Both the position numbers and the translations under genes were made by a program. The notes beneath the pieces were generated by a model. The model worked only from the letters and a program-made list of their open reading frames with translations, was not told the DNA's origin and searched no databases. From positions 1 through 15,380 of the forward strand of contig LKUE01000347.1 of NCBI GenBank assembly GCA_001412365.1: a stretch of 15,380 nt of DNA, given 5' to 3'. Position 1 is the stretch's first letter. Every line of letters starts with the position of its first letter. Shown piece by piece: positions 1 through 15,380 of this stretch. This DNA comes from Desulfuromonas sp. SDB (GTDB taxonomy: Bacteria; SDB-A).

Positions 1-54
1 ATAATTGTTTAGCCGTGGTCCAAAAAATGGCCACAAATTATAGGAGGTAGCCCC

Positions 55-222: not shown

Positions 223-392
223 AACGAAAACTTCTTCTTAAAAAAATTACCACACTAGGTTGTATATTACTTAGGCATGGGAAAAAACATGATCTTTATT
301 TAAATCCTGCGACTGGAAAAAAGCAACCTGTTCCCCGACATAATGAAATAGATGAGTAGCCTGCTAAGCATATCTTAAAAGAATTATCTTAA
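219..392 (+). pseudogene. hicA: HicA-like mRNA interferase toxin, broken by a late amber codon
   Basis: Translation from TTG 219 begins MKRKLLLKKITTLGC, then ILLRHGKKHDLYLNP, ATGKKQPVPRHNEIDE, a TAG at 357-359, and PAKHILKELS before TAA 390-392. This is the HicA double-stranded-RNA-binding-like fold nearly end to end: the KRKELLK helix, the G-C-LLR-G-x-KH strand with the catalytic-type histidine (in GKKH), the NPxTGK-VPRH turn and the final LA-xILK-L helix. In working systems HicA degrades mRNA and is held inactive by HicB. The amber codon removes the last helix (about ten residues), and the partner antitoxin frame is also broken, so I read the locus as a relic. TAG ends other genes here (8908-8910, and the peptidase at 416-418), so readthrough by code change is unlikely. 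TTG is the best start because it overlaps the hicB-like stop. Confidence 0.62.
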
Positions 393-415
393 TTTTCTAT
401 TACTAATTTTAGCAA

Positions 416-2455
416 CTATTCAATTATTTCCAGTTTGAAGGTTAATCGGGAAGAAATAAAATCAACATTAATAAAGTAAATACCAGAAGATGCTTGATTA
501 TCTAATAGGTTTGATGGTGACCAATAATGGCTACCTGCGGTATAAGTTTCCCGTATAGAAGCAATAGTTCTTCCGGATAGGTCAGTGATGGTAAATTTTA
601 CATTCTGTGGTACTGGTATATCAAACTTCACTTGAGGAATATCTCCCACCGAATTGATTAAAAAGCAGCTTATCTGATTAGGGTGGATTTGAGGTTGTTC
701 AGCAATAGCGGAAGGATGACAGTGAGTTACCGCATCCAGGTCGTAACCGGGTGTAGTTCCGGAAGTTGAACTGTAATCATCCACTATTTTCACATATCTG
801 GCTGACTGTAGACCTGTTGAGGACAAATCAAAACTGTCTGTTCCCACTGCGGTTCCCAACAGCTGCCAACCCTGATTAAACTCAGGGGAATTGCCTGCAT
901 AAACCTCACAATTTTCAACAATTCCGTCATTTCCTTCATGTATTACTATATCATAGCCGGTTTGATCAGTGACCTGATTGCCCTCTCCGAAGTCCAATAT
1001 TACAAATCCCTGGCGGTTAAGGGACATGAACACTCCGTCCACCGGTCCCAGGGCATCATAGGCATAGGTGCTGTTGATGAAGTTACTGTATTCCTGACGT
1101 GCTGCCAGTAATCTTATCGCAAAATAATCTGATCCCGGTGCAAGTTCAAAGTCAAGTCTAACTGAAGTATCTGCATAAATCTGTACGGACTTAGTTTGAC
1201 TGAGATAGCCAGGGACATAGGCGGTAACTGAGTAAGTCCCCGGAGCTAAAATTTTGTGATATTCACCGGTAGCATTTCGGGAATTGGTTATCCAGCGGGG
1301 ATCGTTTCCCTGTTTAAAAAATAAAACTCCCTCCAGGGGTGAACCATTTAAGCTGTCGGTTAAATATCCCTGGATGCCGTAACCGGCTAATTTGGCTACG
1401 TAGATCATCGCTCCCCGATTCTTAAGACACTCCGGATCAGGATCAGTGGGCTGTTGTGATTCAATAGTTACATCCAGTGTTCCAAATAAGCCGTAGGTGG
1501 CATCCTGGCAGGAGCCGCTCACTTGGTACCAGCTGTAGCCATTGATGGTATCGTAACCGGTAGAATCAGCGTAAGGAACTGAAAACATAACTACTTCTTC
1601 ATAGTAATCGGGAACCTGGTAAGTGGAGTAATCCCACAGGTAGTTGACATAGCTGGAAACAGAATGGTAATCCAGAGAGATGGTGTAGCCGTATTTACAG
1701 TAATCATCTCTCATTACTCTGCTTTCCGGTTGGGAAAAGGGAATAGAAGCTCCACTGTGCTGGAACCATTGAAATCCGTAATCTCTGTTCACATCTATGC
1801 CGTTTGCATTGTATCTTGATCCGGCATAAAACCCGTCCGGATTGACTACCGGAATGATGAAGATTTCTCTATTATCCACCAAGGAAGTAACTTCAGGCAG
1901 AGTCCCGTAGTTATCCAGAAGATACCTCATGAAGTACAGATTTATCTCTGTGGCAATATTTTCGTCTCCGTGGTGACATCCGTTGAACTGAATTTTGCCT
2001 TCCAGTTCATCATCAACGACATTGTCGCTGATTTTTATGCTGATTATGGGGCGGTTCTGCACTGACCAGCCGATGGTATCACACCTGGCGATGGCGGGAT
2101 AGTTAGTTATGTATGTATTCACTTCGCTTAGAACCTGGCTCCAGGTATGGTAGTAGCCGTAATCAACCGGATCATTGATCAGGTGACGATCGTAGACTAC
2201 GGGGATACTTAATGATCTGATCTGATCAACAAACTGCCGGTCAGCATAAATTTCAATATAATCTTCATATACTCTGATAACATCTATATTTTCAATATTT
2301 TCTATCTGTTGAATTATTGATCTTTCTGCAGTGGGCACTTTCCAAACATCCCATTGTCGGTAAATACTGAAATCGGAATCACTGAAATTGTCCTGGGCAA
2401 AGATAGAATTAGTTGATAACAATAAAATTAATCCGGTATATAATAAAAAATTCAT
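416..2455 (-). CDS. Secreted M14 zinc carboxypeptidase with C-terminal sorting-type domain
   Basis: A 679-residue exported metallocarboxypeptidase, expected to trim C-terminal residues from peptides outside the cytoplasm. A signal peptide (about residues 1-20, ending SIFA) leads into a propeptide-like segment (35-92), then the M14 domain (about 100-355). The zinc ligands are all present: H162 and E165 in HHGDE, and H264 in LDYHS. The substrate-binding R224 lies in DVNRD and the general base E332 in VTIES, so the enzyme should be active. Residues 360-440 look like a carboxypeptidase-regulatory (CNA-B-like) beta sandwich. Residues 445-581 form a beta-rich module ending ARYVKIVDD...PGYDLDAV, a pattern seen in cell-surface proteins. 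The C-terminus (about 590-679) is a FlgD-Ig/type-IX-sorting-like domain with TDLSGRTI and SSGIYF. AGGAGG (cctcct on plus, 2460-2465) lies four bases upstream of the ATG. It is divergent from the macrodomain gene, and no terminator is evident. Confidence 0.9.
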   Translation of the reverse strand: MNFLLYTGLILLLSTNSIFAQDNFSDSDFSIYRQWDVWKVPTAERSIIQQIENIENIDVIRVYEDYIEIYADRQFVDQIRSLSIPVVYDRHLINDPVDYGYYHTWSQVLSEVNTYITNYPAIARCDTIGWSVQNRPIISIKISDNVVDDELEGKIQFNGCHHGDENIATEINLYFMRYLLDNYGTLPEVTSLVDNREIFIIPVVNPDGFYAGSRYNANGIDVNRDYGFQWFQHSGASIPFSQPESRVMRDDYCKYGYTISLDYHSVSSYVNYLWDYSTYQVPDYYEEVVMFSVPYADSTGYDTINGYSWYQVSGSCQDATYGLFGTLDVTIESQQPTDPDPECLKNRGAMIYVAKLAGYGIQGYLTDSLNGSPLEGVLFFKQGNDPRWITNSRNATGEYHKILAPGTYSVTAYVPGYLSQTKSVQIYADTSVRLDFELAPGSDYFAIRLLAARQEYSNFINSTYAYDALGPVDGVFMSLNRQGFVILDFGEGNQVTDQTGYDIVIHEGNDGIVENCEVYAGNSPEFNQGWQLLGTAVGTDSFDLSSTGLQSARYVKIVDDYSSTSGTTPGYDLDAVTHCHPSAIAEQPQIHPNQISCFLINSVGDIPQVKFDIPVPQNVKFTITDLSGRTIASIRETYTAGSHYWSPSNLLDNQASSGIYFINVDFISSRLTFKLEIIE

Positions 2456-2498
2456 TATTCCTCCTGAAAAATACTATGAAAAATTAATAGGTTATTTT

Positions 2499-2526
2499 AT
2501 ATTATTTATCAGATTAGTAAAAGCAA
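2499..2526 (-). promoter_or_regulatory. Candidate sigma70-type promoter for the M14 peptidase gene
   Basis: Read on the minus strand, TTGCTT (2526-2521) is followed after 16 bases by TAATAT (2504-2499). The expected transcript start would lie about 35-40 bases before the ATG at 2455. The 84-base divergent spacer is very AT-rich, so chance matches are possible. No equally good pair was seen on the plus strand for the macrodomain gene. Confidence 0.32.
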
Positions 2527-2539
2527 GAATGAGGTAAAA

Positions 2540-3052
2540 ATGAACAAGATTAAAATTATATCTGGTGATATTACCAAACTGGATGTAGACGCTATTGTCA
2601 ATGCCGCCAACCGAAGTTTATTGGGAGGAGGGGGAGTTGACGGGGCAATTCACCGGGCAGCAGGTCCAGAACTTCTGGATTACTGCCGTAGTTTAGGGGG
2701 ATGTGAGACCGGAGAGGCAAAAATAACCCCTGGCTTTAATTTACCCGCTAAATGGGTAATTCATACGGTGGGTCCAGTGTGGAGGGGGGGGGATAACCGG
2801 GAAGCGGAGCTTTTACAAAGCTGTTATAGTAACAGTATGAATATCGCCCATGAAAAATCAATAAAGTCAATTGCCTTTCCCGCTATAAGCACAGGGGTTT
2901 ACGGTTATCCTAAACCGCAGGCAGCGGAGATAGCGGTTAATACGGTATTGAAATTTTTAAAAGATCATCAACTGCCCCAACAGGTTATCTTCACTTGTTT
3001 TTCACCGGAAGACCTTGAAATATACAATCAGGTTTATAAAAAATACAGTTAA
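2540..3052 (+). CDS. Macrodomain protein (ADP-ribose binding / O-acetyl-ADP-ribose deacetylase type)
   Basis: A 170-residue stand-alone macrodomain of the YmdB/MacroD/TARG-like class, the usual length for the family. Such proteins bind ADP-ribose and many hydrolyse O-acetyl-ADP-ribose or mono-ADP-ribose on proteins or nucleic acids. Visible motifs are the N-terminal [16 protein letters not shown] (ends at N24), the [10 protein letters not shown] loop (29-38, with D34 and H38 where MacroD enzymes carry catalytic residues) and the phosphate-binding STGVYGYP loop (117-124). The VIHTVGP strand (73-79) is also typical. GAGG (2531-2534) precedes the ATG by five bases. The stop overlaps the next start (TAATG), implying translational coupling to the large winged-helix protein. 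A run of nine G (2784-2792) lies inside the codons for WRGGD. The fold call is secure; the substrate is unknown. Confidence 0.93.
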
Positions 3053-5328
3053 TGAATTCTCCTCAAAGTATTGCCAGCTTAATATACCGGAAACTTGACC
3101 AGCTGGGGAAGCTTCATTACCGGAAGTTAACTGATATTTTAAAAAAAGAGATCCCCGGCATTGATGAACAGAGGGTTAATGCAACCTGCAGCGGAGATCA
3201 AAGGTTTGAAAGTGACAATCGAGGGCACTGGTGGATAATCGGTAGAACGGAAAGGGAGATTGAACTCAATGAAAAAATATTAGAGTTAATAAAATCTGAT
3301 TCTAAGCCCCTGTACACTCCTCAGATAAACTGCCAACTATACCAGAACAATTTGCTTAAATTAGATGAAGAATCCCTGCCTCGGAGAATCTTAATGGGAA
3401 ATAATTTTGTAAGATGGGGAACCAGCGATTACTGGAGTGATCAGAATATAAATCTTCCCACTTCCAATATCAGTAATTTTTACCGGGAGCAGATAAAAAA
3501 TTTCTTTACCCGCTACCGTCAGCCTTTAACCAGAAAATCGTTGGCGGATACAATAACTTCTCTTGCCGGAATCTACATTCGACCGGAAAGCGGATTTAAT
3601 GCGGAAATTTCTAAATTGATCAAGGAAAAATATCTTAAAAATTTAGGGCATTCAGTGATCGCCACTATGGAATCTTCATTTCACCTAACCAGTTTTAAAT
3701 TAAAAGAAATGCTTTATACCATTCTTCAAAGGTACAAGTATCCTATGAATTTAAATGAGATCAAGAACAAGATAGCTGAAGATTTCAACCATGATATCCC
3801 TGAAACCAGCATTTCCTCTGCACTGGTTGAAGATACCAGGTTTGTCCATCATAAAAATCATTACTGGACGATAAGAGGATTTAATCCTCCCCAGTCGGAG
3901 TCAAAAAACGTCTACAAATCAGGAAAAAAAATAAATTCCAATAAAATTTCCGTGAGTAGTTTAAAAAAGGGGGTGCTTCCGGTTGATCCTGAAATTTCTA
4001 AAATATTTCCGTCCTACCAGTCTCAGGTGATATTTAAGACTGAAGCCAAAACCCATTTAGTAAATTACAATTTTGAAAACAGGACTTTGGAAAATCTGAA
4101 CAATATTTATGAGGAGTTAGAGATTAAGGTTGGAGATATACTGCAAATCAAGTTATCCGACATAAACTTAAAAGTTTACCAAATTCAAAAAATCACTACT
4201 CAAGATCCATCTTATCGAAACTCACCTAAAAGTAAATTGCTGATTCCAGGAATTTCCAATCATGATTTAATTTATAACTTCAAAGATATCGTTTCCAATT
4301 TCACCGCTCCCGATCAATGCGGTAAAATTTTACTTCCTCTAAAATCACTGGACTTAACCAGTGATTTGTCCGTACTGCTGTTCCACGGAAATAGAAATAT
4401 CAGCTGGCAGAGCAAAGATGATTTATCAGCTACCTGGGTGAAACAGCTGAAAAATTCTAAAAAGTCAAAGCTGAAAATTTCCCGGTTTTCCAGAACCTGG
4501 TGGAGAAATGAACTGTCATTTCTGCAGAAAAAACTTTCCCCATTGTACCAGATGGATGAAAAATGTCTTAATTGCAACCACCCACTGCATTTTTTAGATC
4601 ACATTTGGGGTACCTTATCCTACAGAGTTATTTGTTCAAATAATAATTGCCGTAATTCTTCTTTACGCAATGCCCAGAAGATCAGAATGGACATCCAGGA
4701 ACAGCAAAGATTCAATGAAAGAATAAATGAACAAATGGTCAATCTTTTATACCGTAAAGATTTATTTAATCAAAACTTTGAACAAAAATTTATCAGATCT
4801 TTCATATCCCCTTATTGTCTTCTAGGATTGGATTTGTTAATAAAATCAATTGATAAAGTTAATCAAAAAGAATACCGAACCTTTCTTTACCTAACCTGGA
4901 TGGAATTATTGCTGGACTGCTTAAATAATGATATTATGATAGATAAGAATATTTTAATTAATTATGACTTGAAGTTAAAAAATTTAACAAAATTTCTATT
5001 GGAATTTACATACAGGGATTTTACATTATCATCATCACCGGATTTTGAAGTCAGTTATTATCCCAGTTCAACCGAGTTAATAAAACAAAAAATAATCCAG
5101 AACATAGTAAATTCATTTTCTGGATTCAGTGAAGCTGGTGAACAGGATGATAAAAATCAATATAGCTTAAAATCTTCAGGAAAGTATTTTTTGATCACCA
5201 AGCGCAATATTTTAGATCCTGATCATCATGAAATAACTGATAAGTTCAAACAGCAGCAGCTGGTATTAATTAAAAAATATACTGCGATAATGGATAATTC
5301 AGATGTTCTGGTTTTTGAAAAACAGTAA
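3052..5328 (+). CDS. Unrecognised 758-residue protein: four winged-helix-like segments, zinc ribbon, helical C-terminus
   Basis: I do not recognise this as a named family. The N-terminal 277 residues appear to be four successive winged-helix units (about 5-65, 72-130, 145-212, 214-277). The first and last end in near-identical patterns, D49-Q-R-F...W60-W61 and D261-T-R-F...Y271-W272, and the second has NNF...Y127-W128. This closely resembles the HARE-HTH of RNA polymerase delta subunits, where a D-x-RF...W strand closes the wing. Residues about 330-385 look like a small beta barrel (VNYNFENRTL, then VGDILQIKL). A zinc ribbon follows, C505-x2-C508...C528-x4-C533, then a mostly helical region to the end. 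No nuclease, ATPase or transmembrane motif was seen. ATG 3052 overlaps the macrodomain stop by one base and has no Shine-Dalgarno sequence, so it depends on coupled translation. A role in DNA or transcription-complex binding is inference. Confidence 0.85.
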   Translation: MNSPQSIASLIYRKLDQLGKLHYRKLTDILKKEIPGIDEQRVNATCSGDQRFESDNRGHWWIIGRTEREIELNEKILELIKSDSKPLYTPQINCQLYQNNLLKLDEESLPRRILMGNNFVRWGTSDYWSDQNINLPTSNISNFYREQIKNFFTRYRQPLTRKSLADTITSLAGIYIRPESGFNAEISKLIKEKYLKNLGHSVIATMESSFHLTSFKLKEMLYTILQRYKYPMNLNEIKNKIAEDFNHDIPETSISSALVEDTRFVHHKNHYWTIRGFNPPQSESKNVYKSGKKINSNKISVSSLKKGVLPVDPEISKIFPSYQSQVIFKTEAKTHLVNYNFENRTLENLNNIYEELEIKVGDILQIKLSDINLKVYQIQKITTQDPSYRNSPKSKLLIPGISNHDLIYNFKDIVSNFTAPDQCGKILLPLKSLDLTSDLSVLLFHGNRNISWQSKDDLSATWVKQLKNSKKSKLKISRFSRTWWRNELSFLQKKLSPLYQMDEKCLNCNHPLHFLDHIWGTLSYRVICSNNNCRNSSLRNAQKIRMDIQEQQRFNERINEQMVNLLYRKDLFNQNFEQKFIRSFISPYCLLGLDLLIKSIDKVNQKEYRTFLYLTWMELLLDCLNNDIMIDKNILINYDLKLKNLTKFLLEFTYRDFTLSSSPDFEVSYYPSSTELIKQKIIQNIVNSFSGFSEAGEQDDKNQYSLKSSGKYFLITKRNILDPDHHEITDKFKQQQLVLIKKYTAIMDNSDVLVFEKQ

Positions 5329-5412
5329 TGCCGGAGATGGGAGTCGAACCCATACAGAGCAAGCTCCGCTGGATTTTGAGTCCAGTGCGTCTACCAGTTT
5401 CGCCACTCCGGC
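5329..5412 (-). tRNA. tRNA-Leu, anticodon CAA
   Basis: Read on the minus strand, the 7-bp acceptor stem GCCGGAG (5412-5406) pairs with CTCCGGC (5336-5330), and the discriminator base is A (T at 5329 on plus), as leucine tRNAs require. The D-arm carries GGCGAAACTGGTAGACGC. The anticodon stem CTGGA/TCCAG encloses loop CTCAAAA, giving anticodon CAA (reads UUG). A long class-II variable arm with stem GAGC/GCTC and a T-arm ATGGG-TTCGACT-CCCAT complete the cloverleaf. The 3' CCA is not encoded. The gene ends exactly beside the TAA (5326-5328) of the convergent 758-residue gene, with no spacer. Confidence 0.97.
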
Positions 5413-5424
5413 AATTAGAACAAG

Positions 5425-5453
5425 ATATTATCTTTAATGAATTTTTATGTCAA
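5425..5453 (-). promoter_or_regulatory. Near-consensus sigma70 promoter of tRNA-Leu(CAA)
   Basis: On the minus strand a perfect -35 box TTGACA (5453-5448) is followed after exactly 17 bases by TAATAT (5430-5425), placing transcription start about a dozen bases or fewer before the tRNA 5' end (5412). The -35 box overlaps the ATG of rimO (5447-5449) on the other strand. RNA polymerase recruited for the tRNA would therefore cover the rimO initiation region. Confidence 0.75.
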
Positions 5454-6763
5454 GAATAAACAAAACCTATTATTTGGATTTTACCGGCTGCTATCGGGCT
5501 CATGTGGATGCGGAGTTAATCTGCGCTGAACTTGATCAAGCCGGATATAAACCACTTAACTCACCGGAGAATGCTGATTATATAGTTTTTTTAGGATGTT
5601 CATTTATCGAACTGGCAAGAGAGGAGAGCATACAGAGAATTTTAGAATTATCCACCATAAAAAATGACCAGGCAGTTCTTATCGCGGGAGGGTGCCTGTT
5701 CAGGCGGCATCAAAAAGAATTAAAAAAATATCTTACCGAAGTTGATCTCTGGGTCAACGGTTCAAATCCCCAGGATTTCTTAGGCACAATTCAGAAAGGA
5801 AGGGAATTATCCCAGCCGCAAATATTCCCCGCAATTTCTGGCAAGAGAAGCTATATTGGATCTCCACATTACGCCTATGTGAAGATATCAGAAGGATGTA
5901 GAAACAACTGCAGTTACTGTGCCATTCCCCATATACGGGGCAAACACCGAAGCAGACCGGCAGGAGATATTGTTGATGAAATAATTGAATTACAGAAAGC
6001 TGGGGTTAAGGAGGTAATACTTGTAGCTCAGGACAGTACTTCCTACGGTGTGGTTCAAGAAAACAACACTGATTTAATTTCACTGTTAACTCAAATCGAA
6101 TCAGTTTTAGAAAAAGAAGTTAAATACCGACTGCTTTATTTACATCCTCAGAGATTAAGCACCTCTCTTTTCGAATTTATCGCCGGTTCCGATAAAATTT
6201 TGAAAATGCTGGAAATTCCCATTCAGCATGTGTCCGACAGGATTCTGACTAAAATGAATAGAAATTATAGTGGGGATGATCTGGAAAAATTGTTTTCTCA
6301 AATAAAATCTATAATCCCTGAAGCGGGTTTGCGCACAACTTTACTCAGCGGATTTCCGGGGGAAACCAGAGCAGATCATGAAAAACTGACGGAATTTATT
6401 AAACAGTTTAAGTTTCAAAGGTTGGGAGTTTTTTCCTACAGCCGGGAGGAGAATACTTCCGCCGGTAGTTTTTCCGGACAAATTTCTGCCCCGGTAAAGA
6501 AAAAACGCAAGCTGGAATTAAATGATATCACCGAGCAGATCATGCAGGAGGAGGATAAAAACAGGATAGGCAAAAAAATCCCCGCGATTGTAGATGGTTT
6601 TTATTTAAATTATCCTGTAGTCAGAACTGATTGGGATCTTCCCGAAATTGATAAAGTGGTATTAATCCGGGGTTCAGATAAACTGGATAGCGGTCAGTGG
6701 ATAACTATTAAATTGACCGAGGTGGATGATCATCAAATTTGGGGAGAAGTTGATGAACAGTGA
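5447..6763 (+). CDS. rimO: Ribosomal protein S12 methylthiotransferase RimO
   Basis: A 438-residue radical-SAM methylthiotransferase, the usual RimO length. It would add a methylthio group to the conserved aspartate of ribosomal protein S12. The N-terminal domain carries the three cluster cysteines C15, C51 and C83. The radical-SAM cluster is C151-x3-C155-x2-C158 in SEGCRNNCSYCAIP, followed by RGKHRSRP. AQDSTSYG, YLHPQR, IPIQHVSD, SGFPGETRAD and GVFSYSREENTSAG are the RimO-type (rather than MiaB-type) signatures, and residues from about 370 form the TRAM domain. The first cluster motif reads TGCYRAHVDAE where RimO usually has a GCxKNxVDSE-like sequence, so the N-terminus is somewhat divergent. 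No Shine-Dalgarno sequence precedes ATG 5447, and the start overlaps the -35 box of the divergent tRNA promoter. It is the first gene of a tightly spaced cluster running to 9404. Confidence 0.92.
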   Translation: MSRINKTYYLDFTGCYRAHVDAELICAELDQAGYKPLNSPENADYIVFLGCSFIELAREESIQRILELSTIKNDQAVLIAGGCLFRRHQKELKKYLTEVDLWVNGSNPQDFLGTIQKGRELSQPQIFPAISGKRSYIGSPHYAYVKISEGCRNNCSYCAIPHIRGKHRSRPAGDIVDEIIELQKAGVKEVILVAQDSTSYGVVQENNTDLISLLTQIESVLEKEVKYRLLYLHPQRLSTSLFEFIAGSDKILKMLEIPIQHVSDRILTKMNRNYSGDDLEKLFSQIKSIIPEAGLRTTLLSGFPGETRADHEKLTEFIKQFKFQRLGVFSYSREENTSAGSFSGQISAPVKKKRKLELNDITEQIMQEEDKNRIGKKIPAIVDGFYLNYPVVRTDWDLPEIDKVVLIRGSDKLDSGQWITIKLTEVDDHQIWGEVDEQ

Positions 6764-7829
6764 TAGCATAAAATTCACCGCAGTAATATCTTTACTGGTA
6801 CTAGCCGGCTGCAGCAATCCTCAACCGGAGCCTGAAATTATTCATTTGCCTAACATCAACAACGTGTACTTTAAGTTTATATGGTCAAAAAATTTGCCGG
6901 GAACTCCCACTTACCCCCTGTTTTTATCTGATTCTGCAATTTTAGTGGGAACTGATGAAGGAACTTTGCATCAGTATTCTCTTACCCGGGGAGAACTGAT
7001 TAGGGAAATAGGGGGAATGAAAAGACTGACCGGAATTGCCCCGTGTAAAGAGGGCATAGCTGTATTGAGCTATTCCGGTTATCTGGATATACTTGATTAT
7101 AATTTTAATTGTACTGCCCGGGAAATACTGCCGGGAATTCAGTTTTATCCGCCGGTGGTTGCAGATAATTATTTATGTTGTTATAACATTGAAGGTACTG
7201 CTTTTATAGTGGAATCAGAACAGCTGCATATATACTCAGTGAAAACTGAAAATATGTGGGGGACCGGTCGAACCGGGATAATTGCAGAGGGTAATTCAAT
7301 TTACTCAATATCTGAAAACGGATTATGGAAGATAGATGTAGGAGGTAAAACCATAGATATAAGCTGCCAGTTTGATTCCCTGGAATTGTTGACTGATTTA
7401 TGGGTTGGACATGAACTGATTGCGGTTTCCAACAGCTGGGGGGAAATTAAGCTGGTAGATAAGCACAATTTTCAAATTCTCTACCACTTTATCACCGGAT
7501 TGAATTGTCCGGTCAAAACAACTGTACAGGATAATTACCTGTACTACCAATCTAACTGCGGGGAATTGGGCTGCGTGGAGTTGGTTAATTATTCACTGAT
7601 GTGGAAATATCAGCTTAAGGGCAATTCTTATACAAAGCCGCTGGTAATTGGTGATATTATATTAACTGGAGATGATCAGGGTTACCTGTATAAATTGAAC
7701 CGATGGTCGGGCATGGAATTGAATTTGAAAAAAATAACTGATCAAAACATAATTGAAATTGTCAGGCATGATAGATATCTGATAATAATGGGGCTTAAAG
7801 GAGGATTATATGTCCTGGTGGAGACCTAA
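6753..7829 (+). CDS. Beta-propeller (PQQ-repeat-like) lipoprotein, first of a tandem pair
   Basis: A 358-residue predicted lipoprotein. The signal sequence ends in the lipobox LAGC with lipidated C20, so it should be tethered in the cell envelope. The rest consists of repeated strands of the type ILVGTDEGTLHQYSLTRGE, LIAVSNSWGEIKLVDKHN and ILTGDDQGYLYKLNRWSG, characteristic of PQQ-like or WD40-like beta-propellers (BamB-type fold, six to seven blades by eye). No enzymatic motif is seen; a scaffolding or binding role in the envelope is inference. I chose ATG 6753 over the longer ATG 6726 because GGGGAG (6741-6746) lies six bases before it and only this start gives a proper signal peptide. It overlaps rimO by 11 bases and the next gene by 20. 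Confidence 0.82.
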   Translation: MNSDSIKFTAVISLLVLAGCSNPQPEPEIIHLPNINNVYFKFIWSKNLPGTPTYPLFLSDSAILVGTDEGTLHQYSLTRGELIREIGGMKRLTGIAPCKEGIAVLSYSGYLDILDYNFNCTAREILPGIQFYPPVVADNYLCCYNIEGTAFIVESEQLHIYSVKTENMWGTGRTGIIAEGNSIYSISENGLWKIDVGGKTIDISCQFDSLELLTDLWVGHELIAVSNSWGEIKLVDKHNFQILYHFITGLNCPVKTTVQDNYLYYQSNCGELGCVELVNYSLMWKYQLKGNSYTKPLVIGDIILTGDDQGYLYKLNRWSGMELNLKKITDQNIIEIVRHDRYLIIMGLKGGLYVLVET

Positions 7830-8910
7830 AAATATAATATTAATCTTAATGATGGTCAGCATATTGAGTTCTTGTTCAGTATTCAACAGAACTGATTATA
7901 ACTGGAGTATGTACGGAGGTCATTCAAGCCGTGCCCCCTATGGAGAAGTTAATTTTCCTGATTTTTCAGATTCGGTGATTATTGAACTTAATTTTTCTCC
8001 TGCTTATATGATTCCGGCAGACCAGGGAATATTCCTTTGGGATAACCAGGGTAGTTTATACTGGCTGGATTATTTAAACCAGAATCCGGTTTTAGTCAGA
8101 GAGGAATCATCACCAGTAAGTGCTGTATTGAAGAAAGATAATACAATATACACTGTGTACGCCAATGGCTTAATTGTCGCTGATGATGCGGAAAAAATGG
8201 AAACTGCATGGACCTGGCAGTGCAAAGACAGCATATTTTCCACTCCGGTTATTTACCAGAACATAATGGCAGTTCAATCCCAGCACAATTTATGGTTGAT
8301 GGAAACCTCCAGCGGAGAAATATTATACACCGATACCAGTGTGAACTCTCAAGGATGTGCAAATTTATCTTTAAACATGGAAGGATCTAAAATTTTCAGC
8401 GGAACTAACCGCGGAGAAATATTTTGCCTGGATGTTGACAAACAAGAGATGAATTGGATATTTAAGAGCAACTTTTATTTTCCGGTACGATCAACCCCCT
8501 TAATTGTTAAAGATCAAGTTCAGGTGATATTTCCCAACGGGATTTTAACTGTAATTGATAAAGATGAGGGCAGGTTAATTGCTGAATTTCAGATAGAACC
8601 GGTTCCTGATTTAAATTATTTTTGCTTTCATAAAGATATAGTTTATCTATCTTCATATCCGGTCAGAAAATACCTGTTGGCTTATTCACTGTCAAAAAAC
8701 AGTTTATTATGGAAAATCCCGGAAGTAGGGGGAACATTTTTGTTATTTAAAAATAAAATACTGATTCTAAGCAATAATCAACTATGTTCTGTTTCCACCC
8801 AGGGGGATCAACTGAACTATTGGAAAATCAGCATTCCCATTTACTGTTTCAGTTATCAATCCAATCAGCTGATCCTGGGGGGAGAGAACAGTTTAATTAT
8901 TTATAAATAG
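7810..8910 (+). CDS. Beta-propeller (PQQ-repeat-like) lipoprotein, second of a tandem pair
   Basis: A 366-residue predicted lipoprotein with hydrophobic segment IILILMMVSI and lipobox LSSC (C22). The mature start YNWSMYGGHSSRAPYG recalls the W-x-x-x-GG/GN opening of PQQ-binding-like propellers. Repeats include FSGTNRGEIFCLDVDKQEMNWIF, IYTVYANGLIVADDAE and LILGGENSLIIYK; aromatic-rich strands of the form alternating with L-x-D-x-x-x-x-x-x-W-x-x give a probable BamB-like fold. It is similar in size and architecture to the preceding lipoprotein, so the two may be old paralogues, though they share little obvious identity. AAAGGAGG (about 7797-7804) precedes the ATG, and the start lies 20 bases inside the upstream gene. 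It ends with TAG. BamB-like outer-membrane assembly is one possibility; the sequence does not prove it. Confidence 0.82.
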   Translation: MSWWRPKNIILILMMVSILSSCSVFNRTDYNWSMYGGHSSRAPYGEVNFPDFSDSVIIELNFSPAYMIPADQGIFLWDNQGSLYWLDYLNQNPVLVREESSPVSAVLKKDNTIYTVYANGLIVADDAEKMETAWTWQCKDSIFSTPVIYQNIMAVQSQHNLWLMETSSGEILYTDTSVNSQGCANLSLNMEGSKIFSGTNRGEIFCLDVDKQEMNWIFKSNFYFPVRSTPLIVKDQVQVIFPNGILTVIDKDEGRLIAEFQIEPVPDLNYFCFHKDIVYLSSYPVRKYLLAYSLSKNSLLWKIPEVGGTFLLFKNKILILSNNQLCSVSTQGDQLNYWKISIPIYCFSYQSNQLILGGENSLIIYK

Positions 8911-8918
8911 GAGAATTT

Positions 8919-9404
8919 ATGCCTTATTGGTTAAAAAGCAATTCAGCAGTTATAATCGGCGATGTCAGGTTGAAACCGAAGGTTAATATATGGCCAAATG
9001 CAGTGCTAAGAGGGGATCTTAACTACATACAGATTGGAGAACAAACAAATATTCAGGATGGCTGTGTACTCCATGTCACTGAAGAACTTCCCGTAATTAT
9101 TGGTAAAAATGTCACCATCGGACATAATGCGGTGGTGCATGGGTGTACGGTTGAAGATGATGTTTTAATTGGCATGGGAGCGATAGTTTTAGATGGAAGC
9201 CATATCGGGAAGGGATCAATTATCGCTGCCGGATCGGTAGTTTTGGAAAATCAGAATATACCCGAGTATTCATTAATAGCAGGAGTGCCCGGCAAAATAA
9301 TAAAGAAATTATCCCCTCAACAAGCAGCTAAATTTGCTGATCATGCTGAAAGTTATTTTGAATTAGCAGATAGAGAACTGGAAAAAGTTCTTATTGACGA
9401 GTAA
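8919..9404 (+). CDS. Gamma-carbonic anhydrase-like left-handed beta-helix protein
   Basis: A 161-residue hexapeptide-repeat protein of the YrdA/PaaY/gamma-carbonic-anhydrase group, which forms trimers with metal bound between subunits. The three expected zinc ligands are present: H52 (VLHV), H69 (IGHN) and H74 (VVHGC). So are R31/D33 (LRGD) and Q46/D47 (IQDG), which flank the active site in Cam-type enzymes. Residues about 10-125 are the hexapeptide coils, ending in the IPEYSLIAGVPGK turn, and the rest is the C-terminal helix. Many members of this subgroup bind metal but show weak or no carbonic anhydrase activity, so the reaction (CO2 hydration or an acyl-CoA-related role) is not settled. 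GGAG (about 8910-8913) overlaps the stop region of the upstream lipoprotein gene, and the eight-base gap implies one transcript. Confidence 0.9.
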   Translation: MPYWLKSNSAVIIGDVRLKPKVNIWPNAVLRGDLNYIQIGEQTNIQDGCVLHVTEELPVIIGKNVTIGHNAVVHGCTVEDDVLIGMGAIVLDGSHIGKGSIIAAGSVVLENQNIPEYSLIAGVPGKIIKKLSPQQAAKFADHAESYFELADRELEKVLIDE

Positions 9405-9429
9405 TTTAGACAACTGAATCCATTATTTC

Positions 9430-9457
9430 TTGACATATAAATCCAAAGGAGTATGTT
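9430..9457 (+). promoter_or_regulatory. Candidate promoter of the 2-oxoglutarate:ferredoxin oxidoreductase operon
   Basis: The 114-base spacer after the carbonic-anhydrase-like gene contains a perfect TTGACA (9430-9435), then a 16-base gap and TATGTT (9452-9457), a four-of-six -10 match. A start about seven bases later would leave a leader of roughly 55 bases before ATG 9519. No riboswitch-like fold or terminator was recognised in this spacer. Confidence 0.45.
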
Positions 9458-9518
9458 AAAGAAATTGAGAGAAACAATTCATAGCTAAGTTTGTTGATTG
9501 AAATATTTTGGAGGTAAA

Positions 9519-10643
9519 ATGTATAAATTGATGATGCAGGGCAATCAAGCCTGTGCACACGGGGCAATTGTAGCAGGATGCCGTTTTTTTGCAGGTTACC
9601 CAATTACCCCGTCGTCAGAAATTGCCGAAGAGTTGTCTCTGCTGCTTCCCCTGGTGGGGGGGAGGTTTATTCAAATGGAAGATGAAATTGCATCTATGGC
9701 TGCGATTATCGGAGCCAGCCTGACCGGATGCAAAGTCATGACTGCAACTTCCGGTCCTGGATTCAGTCTAAAACAGGAAAATATCGGTTATGCCTGCGAA
9801 GCTGAAATTCCCTGTGTGATTATCAATATACAAAGAGGGGGACCTTCCACCGGCAGTCCCACCATGACCTCTCAGGAAGATTTTATGCAAAGCAGGTGGG
9901 GAACCCACGGAGATCATAATATTATTGTTCTCTCTCCTTCCAGTGTTCAGGAAACTTTTGAACTTACCATTACTGCGTTTAATCTGTCGGAAAAGTTCAG
10001 AACTCCGGTTATTTTATTAAGTGATGAAATTGTGGGACATATGACTGAAAAGGTAATTTTGCCGGATCCGGATGAAGTGAAAATTTACGACCGGAAAAAA
10101 CCTGAGGTCTCTCCCCAAGATTATCTTGCCTACCAGTTCACTGAAGATGGCATCCCTCCCATGGCTGATTTCGGAAGCGGATACCGATACCATGTCACCG
10201 GATTGATCCATGATCAAACCGGATTTCCCACCAATGACAGTAATGAAATTAAAAAGATTAAAGACCGTTGGATGAAAAAAATGATTAAGGGAGAAAAGGA
10301 CATAATTTTAACTGAAAGCATCCATACCGATGATATGGATTATCTGATTATTGCCTACGGCTCCTCCGCCCGGTGTGCCAAAAGAGTGGTAAAGATTGCC
10401 CGGGAACAGGGAAAAAAATTCGGTTTGTTAAAACTAACTACGCTGTGGCCCTTCCCCGACCAGATAATATCCAGATTAACCGACAAAGTTAAACAGGTGA
10501 TTGTGCCTGAAATGAATCAAGGTCAGGCAATCAGGGAAGTAAAAAGAGTGGTGGGAGGAAAAATTCCGGTGGTGGGGGTGAATAGATATGATGGAGAAGC
10601 AATGAAACCTGAAGATATTCTAACTGTTATAAATAAATTATAA
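9519..10643 (+). CDS. korA: 2-oxoglutarate:ferredoxin oxidoreductase, alpha subunit
   Basis: A 374-residue alpha subunit of a four-subunit 2-oxoacid:ferredoxin oxidoreductase. The complex converts a 2-oxoacid (2-oxoglutarate for Kor) plus CoA to acyl-CoA and CO2 while reducing ferredoxin, or runs in reverse for carboxylation. The N-terminal pyrimidine-type domain has GYPITPSSEIAEEL (from G26), QMEDEIASMAAIIGAS (52-67), TATSGPGFSLKQENIGYA (75-92) and RGGPSTGSPT (106-115). Then come RWGTHGDH and RTPVILLSDEIVGHM, which match the Kor-type alpha chain. The C-terminal domain has IIAYGSSARCAKRVV and VPEMNQGQ. I chose ATG 9519, preceded by GGAGG (9510-9514); an in-frame TTG at 9498 has no binding site. 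Substrate specificity (2-oxoglutarate versus branched-chain 2-oxoacids) cannot be fixed from motifs alone. Confidence 0.92.
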   Translation: MYKLMMQGNQACAHGAIVAGCRFFAGYPITPSSEIAEELSLLLPLVGGRFIQMEDEIASMAAIIGASLTGCKVMTATSGPGFSLKQENIGYACEAEIPCVIINIQRGGPSTGSPTMTSQEDFMQSRWGTHGDHNIIVLSPSSVQETFELTITAFNLSEKFRTPVILLSDEIVGHMTEKVILPDPDEVKIYDRKKPEVSPQDYLAYQFTEDGIPPMADFGSGYRYHVTGLIHDQTGFPTNDSNEIKKIKDRWMKKMIKGEKDIILTESIHTDDMDYLIIAYGSSARCAKRVVKIAREQGKKFGLLKLTTLWPFPDQIISRLTDKVKQVIVPEMNQGQAIREVKRVVGGKIPVVGVNRYDGEAMKPEDILTVINKL

Positions 10644-10649
10644 GGGGGA

Positions 10650-11207
10650 ATGATGTCTTTTCGTTACGAAATCCGACTGAGCGGCGCAGGAGGTCAGGGA
10701 TTAATTTTAATTGGAAAAATATTAGCAGAAGCTGCGGCAATATTTGAGGATTTAAATGCAACTCAAAGTCAATCTTATGGACCGGAAGCCCGGGGAGGAG
10801 CCAGCCGAAGTGAAGTAATTATTTCCGATGAGGATATTGACTATCCCAAAGCAGATAATGTGGATTTGCTGCTGGCGATGACCCAGGAAGCCCTGGATAA
10901 GTATGGTGATGAGACCAAGGAAAAATCAATAATAATATACGATCAAGATTTAATCACTGCTCCAAAAGAATTAAAGGGTAGGAAATTGTATTCAGCGGAA
11001 ATAACTAAACTGGCTACTGAACAATTCAATAAAACTATTGTAGGCAATATGATTGCCCTGGGTTTAGTTACAAGTCTTTCTCATATCCTCCATCCGGATT
11101 CAGTAAAAAAAGCAATTCAGGCTAGAGTGCCCCGGGGTACTGAACAACTAAATCTCCAGGCTTTTGATCTTGGCTATAAGAGAGGAGAAGAATTACAAGG
11201 ACTCTAA
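10650..11207 (+). CDS. korC: 2-oxoglutarate:ferredoxin oxidoreductase, gamma subunit
   Basis: A 185-residue gamma subunit (POR/KOR gamma domain), which contributes to CoA binding and assembly of the oxidoreductase. The diagnostic GAGGQGL loop is at 12-18, and YGPEARGGASRSEVIIS is at 43-59. DLLLAMTQEALDKY and VGNMIALGL are also family patterns. Its length is normal. A GGGGG run (10644-10648) immediately after the korA stop acts as the ribosome binding site; either of two adjacent ATGs (10650 or 10653) could start. It lies six bases after korA and is followed after one base by the TTG start of the nucleotidyltransferase, so all three should be co-translated. Confidence 0.92.
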   Translation: MMSFRYEIRLSGAGGQGLILIGKILAEAAAIFEDLNATQSQSYGPEARGGASRSEVIISDEDIDYPKADNVDLLLAMTQEALDKYGDETKEKSIIIYDQDLITAPKELKGRKLYSAEITKLATEQFNKTIVGNMIALGLVTSLSHILHPDSVKKAIQARVPRGTEQLNLQAFDLGYKRGEELQGL

Positions 11208-11208
11208 T

Positions 11209-14187
11209 TTGAGTACTAAATTCACTTATCATCTGTTATCCCCTCTGGACCGGACTAAAGAAGAGATCGGCAAATGGGGCAATCACATGAGTAAATACAG
11301 GATGTTCATCGAACAATACTTCGATGACCTGGTGGAATGCCTGGAGGTTAACAATCTTATAGATGAAGTCAATTTAATTCACAATCTTCCCAATATTGAT
11401 CAGCAGGTTCAGCATGACATGGGCATAATTTCAAGACTGGAAGTTCCGGCTAAAAGCAAACTTAACTACTTAGGGGTTTACTATGCCTTAAAATTAGTTC
11501 AAATGAACATCCGGGGTATTGATTTCTTAAGAGCTCAGCTCCAACTGCAGGAACCGTTGAAAGTTTATGAAAAATATATGAGGGAATTAGGTTGGCGGTT
11601 TAGGGCAGTTACCGCAGCTTTTCTGGATAATGTTATGAAAATTCACGCTCTGGAACTGGAATTTCCGGATTTTACCCTGGTAAGTGTGGGCACCAGGGCA
11701 GACCAAGATGACATTGATGTGGCAATCATCACTGAAACTGATGAAAATGCAGGTCAGATTGACCGCTTGTTCAGCCGGATAAATAAAACCATGACCAAGT
11801 TCTCATCTCCTCTCCATTTTCATATCGCTGAAAGTCTGGATAACAACAAATTTTCCTCCACTATTGTGGAGATAAAAGATTTCGTACTTAGAAATATTTC
11901 AAATTTTGTAGTCATAACTGAAATCCTCAGTGCAAAAAGAATATTGGGATCTGAAAACACCATGTTTAAATTTGAGCAGGAGGTTATAAATCTTTTCTAC
12001 CCTCAGTATTCCGAGGACTATAGATACCATGAAGCTTACTTGAGGATAATTTTAGGGGAGACCAATTTATACCTTGCCCGTTCATTGAGCACTGAATTTA
12101 TCCATCCTAAAAATGACGCTTTGAGAATGGTTAAGGGATTATTGTCGGTGCTGAAAACCAGGTACGGCATCGTCAAGAAAAATGCCTGGTCCATAATTGA
12201 CCGGTTAAAAGAAGAAGATACCAAGCACTGGGATATCTACACTGCCATTGGTGAAAGCTTGGCTTTTTTTGAAACGGTGAGGTTTCTTTACATGCTCTAC
12301 GGCATTCAGGAGGAGATGATCGTTTTAAATGTAAAGGAAACCAGGGAAAACCTGAGGAGAGTTGGAGAATTAATGGGAATCGGACCTTACGGAGCGGTAT
12401 CCTGTATTGATCATTTGTTAATGAAATACTATGAGCATTTAAATCGAATTAAAAAAATTGCTGAAATTTTAATGGATGAATGCAAAGTTTATCTGGGCAG
12501 GATAACTGCGTTTAAAAATGTTCTGGTCACCGGCAAGGGGAATATTGCCTTGGAATTTGCCAGACACCTTCAATTCTTCCAAGGGTCACGTTACTGGGAG
12601 GATTTATTTAAACTTTTTAACGAAGACCAGGCAAATTTAATTAAAGAGTTCGCCAGAAATTATCTGGAGCTGCCTGACCGCAAAAGAAGATATATTATCC
12701 GCACTCTTTTTTCTTCATTGGAGACATCTTTTGATGGGCTATTAAAATTCATCATATATTTAGATGTTGTCCAGGATGAACCGGATTTAATAAGAGTTCA
12801 TCAAGAGTTCGTGAAAAATTTTTTTTCATATCTAACTTATACTGATAGCAGCATAGAGTTATTTTTAAGATTTTTTAAAAGATTCCCTGTTTTGATGAAC
12901 AGATTTCTGGTCAAACTGGATAAAAAACAAGTTAACTATATTATTGAAAATGTCCTTCCCGGACAAGATAAAATTAATGTTGAATATACCCAGGCGGTGT
13001 ATTTGATAAAATGTCTGAAAAGTATCTTAGAAATTTACGGTTACGGAAGCTGGCATTTCCGAAAATATTTCCAGAGAATTTCCGCATCCAATCCTGATTT
13101 AATTCAAAACTTAGGTCAAGATGAACAAATCGAAGAGGTTTGTGCAGGCATTTTTGCGGATATATCCAGAACTGCTGACCGAAATAATCAAAAAAAATTG
13201 TTAGGACAATTCTACGATCTTGAATTCATCCACACCGGGTTGAAAGCAATGCGGGGAAGACCGTACCAGGAAGTAGCCAATGCTTATATTGGTTTTACCG
13301 AGACCTATTTGAGAAGTTTATTTGATGTATGTAAATTAGAAATTGAATCCATTCAGAATAAAACCATAGGGGGGGAAGACCAATTTTTGCTTTGTACGGT
13401 GGGCAGCAATGCCAGGGGAAGTTCATATAACGATGATTTAGATCTGGTGGCAATACTTGATTCGGATGATCCTGAATTATTCTACAGTTACAATAAAATA
13501 TTGTCTAAAATTAGCAGAGAAATTGTTAAAAGAGGTTTAATTCCACAGTTTAGATTTGCCGACTATCTAGGAAATTATGTCACCAGAATTTATGAAATCC
13601 AGGAATTGCTTAACAAATATTATCCCAGTGATTTTATTGAAATATCCCAGATTATCGAAGCAAAACCGATCGTCAGTTCGGTGAGAATGATTAAAGTGCT
13701 CTACGATACTATCACTAAACCATATATTTTAAATAATTGGAAATACTATGCCCGAAAGATGATAAAGGAAATTACCGCCAGGAAAGAGAATATCCAAGGA
13801 TTTAAATACGACATAAAGGAATCCCATGGAGGAATCAGGGATATCGAGATGCTGCTGTTAATCTTCAAAGCAAGATATGATATAAAAACATTTTCTTCTA
13901 TTGATACCCTGACTAAGATAACTGAAATTGACCGGAAAAATTCAGAATATTGGGAAAAACTTTACCAGCCTTTGTGTATGTTTAAAGAACTCCGGCAGTT
14001 GATGAGGTTGACAGTGGCCATGGATAATGTCATAAATTTTTCAGAACTATGTCAATCGGTGAGGTTTTTACAATGTGACAACCAAGAACAGAGAAAAAAA
14101 GAACTGGAAGAAATGTATCTGGATTATTTAAAAATTTCAAGCAACTGCATAGATAAGATAATTTCAAATCTTGAATCAGAGTTATGA
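11209..14187 (+). CDS. Large double-nucleotidyltransferase protein related to GlnE/GlnD, inside the kor operon
   Basis: About 992 residues (numbered from TTG 11209). Two polymerase-beta-type nucleotidyltransferase domains are visible. The first has V-G161-T162-RADQD-D168-I-D170 with a shortened loop. The second has the canonical V-G732-S733-x9-D743-L-D745. Near the C-terminus, YDIKESHGGIRDIEML (K870-E880 region) matches the IKxGxGGIRD/EIE signature of GlnE and GlnD, which adenylylate glutamine synthetase or uridylylate PII. The two-domain layout is closer to GlnE. The middle (about 400-700) is helical. No HD domain or ACT domain motif was recognised, which argues against a standard GlnD. The protein probably transfers a nucleotide to a protein, but its target is unknown. 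TTG 11209 is preferred because AAGGA (11197-11201) lies seven bases upstream; a TTG at 11164 lacks one and ATG 11287 is an alternative. An A5T8 tract lies at 12814-12826. Confidence 0.8.
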   Translation: MSTKFTYHLLSPLDRTKEEIGKWGNHMSKYRMFIEQYFDDLVECLEVNNLIDEVNLIHNLPNIDQQVQHDMGIISRLEVPAKSKLNYLGVYYALKLVQMNIRGIDFLRAQLQLQEPLKVYEKYMRELGWRFRAVTAAFLDNVMKIHALELEFPDFTLVSVGTRADQDDIDVAIITETDENAGQIDRLFSRINKTMTKFSSPLHFHIAESLDNNKFSSTIVEIKDFVLRNISNFVVITEILSAKRILGSENTMFKFEQEVINLFYPQYSEDYRYHEAYLRIILGETNLYLARSLSTEFIHPKNDALRMVKGLLSVLKTRYGIVKKNAWSIIDRLKEEDTKHWDIYTAIGESLAFFETVRFLYMLYGIQEEMIVLNVKETRENLRRVGELMGIGPYGAVSCIDHLLMKYYEHLNRIKKIAEILMDECKVYLGRITAFKNVLVTGKGNIALEFARHLQFFQGSRYWEDLFKLFNEDQANLIKEFARNYLELPDRKRRYIIRTLFSSLETSFDGLLKFIIYLDVVQDEPDLIRVHQEFVKNFFSYLTYTDSSIELFLRFFKRFPVLMNRFLVKLDKKQVNYIIENVLPGQDKINVEYTQAVYLIKCLKSILEIYGYGSWHFRKYFQRISASNPDLIQNLGQDEQIEEVCAGIFADISRTADRNNQKKLLGQFYDLEFIHTGLKAMRGRPYQEVANAYIGFTETYLRSLFDVCKLEIESIQNKTIGGEDQFLLCTVGSNARGSSYNDDLDLVAILDSDDPELFYSYNKILSKISREIVKRGLIPQFRFADYLGNYVTRIYEIQELLNKYYPSDFIEISQIIEAKPIVSSVRMIKVLYDTITKPYILNNWKYYARKMIKEITARKENIQGFKYDIKESHGGIRDIEMLLLIFKARYDIKTFSSIDTLTKITEIDRKNSEYWEKLYQPLCMFKELRQLMRLTVAMDNVINFSELCQSVRFLQCDNQEQRKKELEEMYLDYLKISSNCIDKIISNLESEL

Positions 14188-14198
14188 AAGGAGTTGAA

Positions 14199-14438
14199 GT
14201 GAAATCCCCTAAAAAATTCAAGATTACAGTTAACCAACATTACTGTAAAGGATGCAACAACTGTGTTGAATTCTGCCCTAAAAATGTATTGGAATTAAAT
14301 ATTATGTTAAAAGCCTATCCAGTCAGGGAAGATGACTGTATTGGATGTTTAAGGTGCGAATATTACTGCCCCGATTACGCTATAACTGTAACTCCTTTAA
14401 CCGAAGATGCCCGGAATAAGGAGGAGGTAAATCAATGA
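14199..14438 (+). CDS. korD: 2-oxoglutarate:ferredoxin oxidoreductase, delta subunit (2x[4Fe-4S] ferredoxin)
   Basis: A 79-residue ferredoxin-type subunit that passes electrons from the TPP/Fe-S core to free ferredoxin. Two complete cluster motifs are present: C16-x2-C19-x2-C22-x3-C26-P and C47-x2-C50-x2-C53-x3-C57-P. I chose GTG 14199, which has AAAGGAG (14187-14193) five bases upstream. An in-frame ATG at 14184 overlaps the previous stop as ATGA but has no binding site; it would add five residues. The stop overlaps the korB start (ATGA at 14435-14438), so the two are coupled. Confidence 0.9.
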   Translation: MKSPKKFKITVNQHYCKGCNNCVEFCPKNVLELNIMLKAYPVREDDCIGCLRCEYYCPDYAITVTPLTEDARNKEEVNQ

Positions 14439-15310
14439 AAACTGAAATTGTATTAAAATATCTCCGCCAAGATAAACTACCTCATATCTGGTGCCCCGGC
14501 TGTGGGCATGGAATTATTTTAGGTTCTTTACTCAGAGCTATTGACAGTCTGCAATGGGAGAAAGATGATATATCCCTGGTGTCCGGTATTGGATGCTCCA
14601 GCCGCACCCCCGGTTATGTTGATTTCAACACCGTTCATACCACCCATGGACGGGCATTAGCTTTTGCCACCGGTATCAAATTTGCCAAGCCAAGGATGAA
14701 GGTTATTGCAGTGATGGGGGATGGGGATGCAGTTGCCATCGGGGGAAATCATTTCATTCATGCCGCCAGAAGAAATATTGATATTACTGCGGTGATTTTC
14801 AACAACAATATCTACGGGATGACCGGAGGGCAGTATTCTCCCACCACCCCCTCTTATGCCATAGCTTCCACCACTCCTTACGGGAATATTGATCAGCCCT
14901 TTGATATTGTCAATTTAGCCCGGGGGGCGGGAGCCGGCTTCGTAGCCAGGAGTTCGGCAATACATGTTCCCGGCTTAGATAAAATTTTCACTCAAGCTTT
15001 GGAATACAAGGGTTTTTCAGTAGTAGAAGTACTAAGTTTTTGCCCAATTCAGTATGGCAAGAGAAATAAAATGAAAGCGCCCAAGCTGATGATGGACTGG
15101 CTGAAAAAGATTACCATTCCTATCTCTGCTTATGAAAAACTGCCCGATGAGGAAAAGGCAGATAAAGTTCCTGTTGGTGTATTTATCAATATACCCAGGA
15201 TTTCCTACACTGAAAAGTATGACCAGCATGTTGTGCCGGCAGCAAAGAAAATCCAAGACAGGTATTCCTATCTTAAAAAGTGTCAAAAGGGAGCGCTGTT
15301 CGATCTCTGA
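14435..15310 (+). CDS. korB: 2-oxoglutarate:ferredoxin oxidoreductase, beta subunit (TPP-binding)
   Basis: A 291-residue beta subunit carrying the thiamine pyrophosphate site and an iron-sulfur cluster. Cysteines C20 and C23 in WCPGCGHG and C54 in GIGCSSR match Kor beta cluster ligands. The TPP/Mg motif is GDGDAVAIGGNH (95-106) through NNNIYGMTGGQYSPTTP (123-139). HTTHGRALAFATGIK and the CPIQYGKRN segment are typical of the 2-oxoglutarate-type beta chain. AAGGAGGAG (about 14418-14426) lies about eight bases before the ATG. It ends the operon inside the window; no stem-loop terminator is seen in the remaining 70 bases. Confidence 0.94.
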   Translation: MKTEIVLKYLRQDKLPHIWCPGCGHGIILGSLLRAIDSLQWEKDDISLVSGIGCSSRTPGYVDFNTVHTTHGRALAFATGIKFAKPRMKVIAVMGDGDAVAIGGNHFIHAARRNIDITAVIFNNNIYGMTGGQYSPTTPSYAIASTTPYGNIDQPFDIVNLARGAGAGFVARSSAIHVPGLDKIFTQALEYKGFSVVEVLSFCPIQYGKRNKMKAPKLMMDWLKKITIPISAYEKLPDEEKADKVPVGVFINIPRISYTEKYDQHVVPAAKKIQDRYSYLKKCQKGALFDL

Positions 15311-15324
15311 CCTGCCCTGGAATA

Positions 15325-15362
15325 TTAACCACAGATGAACTCAGAAAATACACAGAGAATTT
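15325..15362 (+). repeat. Degenerate CACAGA-type intergenic repeat element
   Basis: After korB the sequence reads TTAACCACAGATGAACTC, then AGAAAATACACAGAGAAT. This resembles the ACCACAGATGAACACAGA-type motif scattered between genes in many environmental bacterial genomes. Only one copy is visible here and the window ends nearby, so the assignment rests on pattern memory, not on internal repetition. Confidence 0.35.
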
Positions 15363-15380
15363 ATTATACTGCTGCGCAGG

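Follow-up and report, generated by a model that had tools for sequence, protein, structure and literature searches.

A tandem nucleotidyltransferase of predicted GlnE/DrrA fold, usually encoded beside kor genes, may act as a covalent switch in the citric acid cycle of uncultured bacteria

We analyze a 15,380-nucleotide (nt) stretch of the genome of Desulfuromonas sp. SDB (contig LKUE01000347.1, positions 1 to 15,380; hereafter, "the window"), in which the genes for the subunits of 2-oxoglutarate:ferredoxin oxidoreductase (KGOR, encoded by korA to korD) enclose a gene for a protein of 992 amino acids (aa), which we call X. According to its predicted structure, X is a tandem protein of the GlnE/DrrA fold, and its relatives are found in several phyla. 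Our results suggest that many uncultured bacteria carry a double-headed enzyme built like GlnE, usually beside kor, that could serve as an on/off switch of the citric acid (TCA) cycle without the usual partners of nitrogen control. We give roughly even chances to the reading that X is a bifunctional protein nucleotidyltransferase that would covalently switch KGOR, with KorC as its likeliest contact and with one clade, linked to genes for succinate dehydrogenase (SDH; sdh), fumarase (fum), or phosphoenolpyruvate (PEP) carboxykinase (pck), serving elsewhere in the cycle. We are more hesitant about the wider proposal, to which we lean somewhat less than halfway, of a new PII-free family of tandem GlnE/DrrA-fold proteins, possibly the product of an independent duplication, that, in several phyla that are mostly uncultured, would covalently switch a TCA-cycle step dependent on ferredoxin, with one clade re-aimed at SDH or fumarase.

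The initial annotation had placed the five genes in one operon in the order korA-korC-X-korD-korB with near-zero or overlapping junctions around X, and the coordinates, all on the plus strand, bear this out (Table 1). korA and korC lie 6 nt apart and korC and X 1 nt apart, and the X/korD and korD/korB junctions are 4-nt ATGA overlaps. The start of X is best read as a TTG at position 11209, 1 base past the korC stop codon and with AAGGA 7 nt 5' of it. Profile and PDB searches recover a complete Kor/Oor-type set in the operon (alpha, beta, gamma, and delta); the four subunits are recognized by Pfam, NCBIfam, and PDB matches, and the nearest structure to KorB is 8ys5, the beta chain of a 2-oxoglutarate:ferredoxin oxidoreductase. 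Since KorA scores above its family cutoff and KorB is nearest to 8ys5, but KorC and KorD fall under their cutoffs, 2-oxoglutarate is the likely substrate of the encoded enzyme, short of proof.

The association between X and kor extends well beyond the host. A scan of contigs with the single X protein returned nothing; an alignment-based scan returned 84 relatives, labelled as WOR-3, KSB1, TA06, Zixibacteria, Gemmatimonadota, Krumholzibacteriota, Eisenbacteria, Cloacimonadota, Calditrichota, and Neomarinimicrobiota; a few carry the labels Acidobacteria, Chloroflexi, Actinomycetota, or Bacteroidetes and may be mislabelled bins. Full-length homologs occur in the three other genomes of the host's family and also beyond it, in other families. 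Of 386 broadly sampled genomes, 22 match the X profile, a set that includes at least one true GlnE (G375, beside GlnA and PII) and other tandem families. We counted neighbors at 73 separate loci from several phyla, each with at least 300 nt of upstream DNA. kor genes lie within 10 kb of X at 55 of these loci; korC stands directly upstream of X on the same strand at 47, and X usually begins no more than about 200 bases past korC. Because korC is the direct upstream neighbor at so many separate loci, the korC-X adjacency is far from chance. The kor linkage is present on all deep branches of the X tree, which points to a functional tie between kor and X across phyla, one that by itself does not give the identity of a substrate. 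That the arrangement might be an oddity of a single genome was considered and rejected, as homologs and kor linkage occur in several phyla.

Three gene orders recur. The exact order A-C-X-D-B, whose conservation the initial annotation had left to be checked, is found in three genomes of the host's family (loci L009, L010, and L011); D-A-B-C-X is the usual order outside that family (KSB1, Marinimicrobia, Gemmatimonadota, and others); and, in Zixibacteria, korDABC faces away from a second, divergent korC (korC2) that is co-oriented with X and precedes it. This second KorC carries changes such as Q39E, Q41C, G50N/S, and N168Y and may be an adaptor rather than a catalytic subunit. At loci of this type (L024, L035, L036, L038, L039, L042, L049, L050, L053, L088, and L093), korC2 and X point away from korDABC and hdrA, often with hdrB downstream. 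Operons without X often read korDABC-ndk, and korC-X-ndk is also seen where X is present; X therefore occupies a defined point between korC and ndk. At six loci (L012, positions 9478-10233; L018, L022, L029, L031, and L032), a nucleotidyltransferase-like protein of about 250 aa is encoded between korC and X or adjoining X; it has a weak match to DUF6036 (E 0.016, under the cutoff) and is possibly a third nucleotidyltransferase partner. Across 79 genomes (36 with X and 43 without; counts uncorrected for relatedness), a KGOR-type korA is found in 34 of the 36 with X versus 18 of the 43 without, and 2-oxoglutarate dehydrogenase E1 over the cutoff is missing from 35 of the 36.

Each half of X contains a nucleotidyltransferase (NT) domain followed by a helical domain, so that the order NT-helical-NT-helical is that of GlnE. 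Both NT domains possess the core features of protein nucleotidyltransferases with the GlnE/DrrA fold, G-[GST] and the DxD metal-binding residues, and D168, D170, D743, and D745 are invariant across 114 sequences. The only solid match of X to a sequence model is PF08335 (GlnD_UR_UTase; E 3e-9), with a marginal one to NTP_transf_2. X thus has the tandem of NT and PF08335-type helical domains of the GlnE fold, with the PF08335 profile match itself confined to the C half. The GlnE model PF03710 has no match in X or in seven homologs (hmmscan, E 0.01), and Pfam and NCBIfam profiles find neither HD nor ACT domains in X (TIGR01693 gives 24 bits versus a cutoff of 519), which therefore lacks the NT-helical-HD-ACT-ACT architecture of GlnD.

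The AlphaFold model of X has a mean predicted local distance difference test (pLDDT) score of 88.4, and the N half folded alone reaches 91.8. In comparisons that use these predicted models, the C half matches the N domain of E. coli GlnE (1v4a) with Z 33.1 over 389 residues at 3.9 A, the C domain of GlnE (3k7d) with Z 29.0, and DrrA (6yx5) with Z 22.1; the corresponding scores for the N half are 27.2, 25.3, and 22.7. The next, unrelated structures in the match lists drop to Z ~8-9. By sequence, X alone finds no match among PDB sequences with phmmer, and the profile of its family did retrieve both GlnE structures. The two halves of X align with each other at a hhalign E of 3e-27, as against 4e-15 for the best alignment of an X half with a GlnE half, and the two GlnE halves align with each other at 6e-50. 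In a half-domain tree, which is suggestive only, given long branches and ~12% identity, a topology that joins the N half of X to that of GlnE is rejected (p-AU 9e-6). Because the X halves pair with each other and the joint N-half grouping is rejected, these data suggest that X and GlnE arose by two separate duplications.

How X relates to known enzymes can be put more precisely. The initial annotation had called X GlnE/GlnD-like, a description that holds for fold and domain order and fails for family membership, as X has no PF03710, HD, or ACT domain. Like GlnE, the glutamine synthetase adenylyltransferase/adenylyl-removase (PF03710 plus PF08335, in tandem), X joins NT and helical domains in the same order; both halves of X match both halves of GlnE (Z 25-33), a KxxxGGIRDIE-type motif is common to the two, and the X profile retrieves true GlnE at E ~1e-22 to 1e-40. 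X departs from GlnE in that identity is ~12% and PF03710 gives no match, its halves pair mutually and not with the corresponding GlnE halves, it is linked to kor, sdh, fum, or pck instead of glutamine synthetase (GS) or PII, and it occurs where PII and an adenylylatable GS are both missing. With GlnD, the PII uridylyltransferase/uridylyl-removase, the C half of X can be aligned over the N-terminal NT-helical region (hhalign probability 97), the PF08335 match being in common; where GlnD has an HD removase domain and ACT domains, X has a second NT domain, in a genome in which we find no PII. The Legionella protein AMPylase DrrA/SidM has the same NT-helical fold (Z 22-23 for both X halves), but it is a single domain, targets host Rab GTPases, and has no kor link. 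Among bifunctional protein nucleotidyltransferases of the GlnE type, we view X as a variant whose new part is its association with the TCA cycle.

From the gene order and its conservation, the predicted fold, the intact DxD sites, the fact that neither PII nor GlnE was found, and the types and sites of the glutamine synthetases (described below), we infer an activity, a nucleotide, a substrate, a contact, a division of labor between the halves, and a signal, as follows. X would be produced together with the ferredoxin-dependent 2-oxoglutarate oxidoreductase, most likely as an AMPylase that has a half of its own for de-AMPylation. The protein would nucleotidylate one of the Kor subunits (KorC, or something that KorC presents, being the likeliest) and then remove the nucleotide, one half attaching it and the other detaching it, as in GlnE but without PII. 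KorC is proposed as the contact because, and only because, it is constantly adjacent to X, the Zixibacteria arrangement included. Such a switch would act on the conversion of 2-oxoglutarate to succinyl-CoA, for which nearly all X genomes searched yielded no second enzyme; in the derived clade, where X stands with SDH, fumarase, or PEP carboxykinase genes, it probably works in that segment of the cycle. Nucleotidylation of a Kor subunit by X had been one of two suggestions in the initial annotation, and it survives as the best hypothesis through the cross-phylum linkage and the GlnE and DrrA fold matches, with the subunit as a presumptive substrate.

Several observations weigh against a dedicated switch on Kor. 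Linkage indicates a functional tie and does not name a substrate, and a search for a candidate modification site, a KorC residue peculiar to the X-linked proteins, turned up none when KorC of one type was compared. The Desulfuromonas sp. SDB genome carries a second kor operon without X. In one whole clade of 27 rows, mostly KSB1, sdh, fum, or pck take the place of kor as neighbors: here, the X gene diverges from sdhCAB, adjoins genes for fumarase and PEP carboxykinase, or lies beside an HdrA-like gene. Several genomes of this clade keep a kor operon elsewhere without X, and two (G107 and G111) have no KGOR korA over the cutoff. Residue R736 of the C-half motif, R in 74/74 kor-linked sequences, is H or Q in the sdh/fum/pck-linked part of this clade. 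Finally, more distant tandem relatives in five genomes (G160, G301, G175, G440, and G187; loci L189, L190, L193, L195, and L200) have no kor neighbors; these GlnE-like proteins look like further uncharacterized branches of the same superfamily. Because the kor link is on all deep branches and the sdh/fum/pck link lies within one clade, X is tied to the TCA cycle, with kor as its main and apparently older partner.

We consider it very unlikely that X is a nitrogen regulator, that is, a diverged GS adenylyltransferase or PII uridylyltransferase that lies in the kor operon by chance. The fold and domain order are those of GlnE, and the two proteins are nearly mutually exclusive (GlnE in 1/36 X genomes versus 10/43 genomes without X); G009 carries both proteins, X being encoded in a kor operon and GlnE apart from it, together with PII and a synthetase, on a different contig. 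PII is found in 19 of the 36 X genomes and shows no relation to X across the 79 genomes. In the host genome (98.7% complete), G001-G003, and G056, neither PF03710 nor PF00543 (PII) has a match, and PF00543 has none in G004 either; a gap in a single assembly might conceal a gene, but gaps do not easily explain its lack in all five. In some X genomes (G047 and G101), PII is retained along with a type I synthetase that has the Tyr for adenylylation. In the host, by contrast, the one glutamine synthetase that we detect is a type III enzyme cut short by its contig (PF12437, E 5e-65), and the type I enzymes of its family-mates G001 and G003 read NLFELPP, with Phe at the position of the adenylylated Tyr. 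The synthetase of G009 reads NIYDLPP, in which the Tyr is the adenylylated residue (Tyr397/398 of E. coli GlnA). The other suggestion of the initial annotation, a nitrogen sensor linked to PII, is thus contradicted in the host genome, where glnE and glnB gave no match and X carries no HD or ACT domain; a nitrogen or PII role there was rejected.

Two further accounts keep X outside nitrogen control. X could be a general regulator of the TCA cycle and low-potential electron flow, acting not on Kor itself but on a shared partner (for example, an HdrA/HdrB-type protein, the KorC paralog, or SDH), with kor adjacency reflecting co-regulation. The neighbors of X, which include hdrA/hdrB, sdhCAB, fumarase, PEP carboxykinase, and ndk genes besides kor, would fit this account, as would genomes G107 and G111, with X but no KGOR korA over the cutoff, and the pairing of X with a divergent KorC2 in Zixibacteria; the kor link, however, spans more of the tree and reaches deeper than any other, X mostly lies close behind korC, and no single non-kor partner recurs across phyla, and we find this account improbable though worth keeping in view. 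We regard it as unlikely that X acts on a small molecule or cofactor (related to thiamine pyrophosphate (TPP), coenzyme A (CoA), or Fe-S) or helps in the assembly or quality control of the complex. Related-fold nucleotidyltransferases do include small-molecule adenylyltransferases of the AadA and ANT types, a point that also tells against a protein substrate, and the operon position would suit a maturation factor. These enzymes match the X halves at Z 7-9, but the far stronger matches are to the protein-modifying GlnE and DrrA (Z 22-33). KGOR occurs in 18 of the 43 genomes without X, so X is not needed for assembly everywhere, and SDH uses neither TPP nor CoA.

The preferred reading of X as a covalent switch on Kor has a direct precedent in SelO, which AMPylates SucA, part of a 2-oxoglutarate-decarboxylating enzyme (PMC12663964, PMC12375108), as well as aconitase and other TCA-cycle enzymes (PMC12663964). 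According to two 2025 papers, no AMPylases of E. coli are known besides GlnE and SelO, and GlnE has one substrate (PMC12663964, PMC12375108). SelO differs in its pseudokinase fold, unrelated to that of X, and in its many substrates, and it is not portrayed there as an operon-dedicated regulator. The initial annotation had taken a link between this enzyme class and Kor operons as not known to be described, and we likewise found no description among the open-access papers searched. If the proposal is true, the GlnE design is used for carbon flux besides nitrogen, and bacteria without 2-oxoglutarate dehydrogenase set carbon and low-potential electron flow by covalent modification at this point. 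It would also give a testable function to a gene family of KSB1, Zixibacteria, Marinimicrobia, WOR-3, Eisenbacteria, and others.

Table 1. The kor operon, its upstream neighbor, and conserved motifs of X in the window
Feature	Position	Strand	Evidence or remark
Gamma-carbonic-anhydrase-like (gammaCA) hexapeptide protein	8919-9404	+	PF00132; directly upstream of korA
korA, alpha subunit	9519-10643	+	NF006412 567.5 bits vs cutoff 411; PF01855, PF17147; PDB 1yd7 E 5e-122, 8ys5_A E 2e-88
korC, gamma subunit	10650-11207	+	PF01558 E 4e-35; NF006323 213 bits, under 235 cutoff
X, 992-aa tandem nucleotidyltransferase of predicted GlnE/DrrA fold	11209-14187	+	PF08335 E 3e-9; AlphaFold model
X, N-half catalytic signature, ~residues 156-172, with GTRADQDDID	11674-11724	+	G161, D168, I169, D170 invariant (51-sequence alignment)
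X, N-half helical-domain motif, residues 298-309, IHPKNDALRMVK	12100-12135	+	K301, R306 invariant
X, C-half catalytic signature, ~residues 729-749, with GSNARGSSYNDDLDL	13393-13455	+	G732, D743, D745 invariant
X, C-half helical-domain motif KESHGGIRDIE, residues 870-880	13816-13848	+	PF08335 match; common to GlnE, GlnD (hhalign)
korD, 2x[4Fe-4S] ferredoxin-like delta subunit	14184-14438	+	PF12838 E 1e-14; NF007205 OorD E 2e-14, under cutoff
korB, TPP-binding beta subunit	14435-15310	+	PF02775; NF007207 333 bits, under 364 cutoff; PDB 8ys5 beta chain E 8e-81

Some smaller observations concern the exceptional loci. The R736 change to H or Q (L041, L071, L073, L075, L090, L091, and relatives) leaves both DxD pairs invariant and is possibly a sign of altered specificity or direction. 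Among the kor-less tandem relatives, those of G160 and G301 lie beside short-chain dehydrogenase/reductase (SDR) and fabD-type genes, and those of G175 and G440 beside genes for proteins of 344 and 375 aa. The second kor operon of the host (G000:C331, L163) reads korDABC followed by two genes, the second of which matches fumarase beta, and its KorC is divergent, with Asn at position 65, Ser at 78, and Pro at 80.

Upstream of korA, the order RimO-PQQ-PQQ-gammaCA-korA-korC-X-korD-korB is kept in the host's family (L009, L010, and L011), and a CO2-handling enzyme adjoining one that releases or fixes CO2 is suggestive. Elsewhere in the window, a gene for a macro-domain protein (2540-3052) overlaps the start of a gene for a 758-aa protein (3052-5328) with a weak HARE-HTH match.

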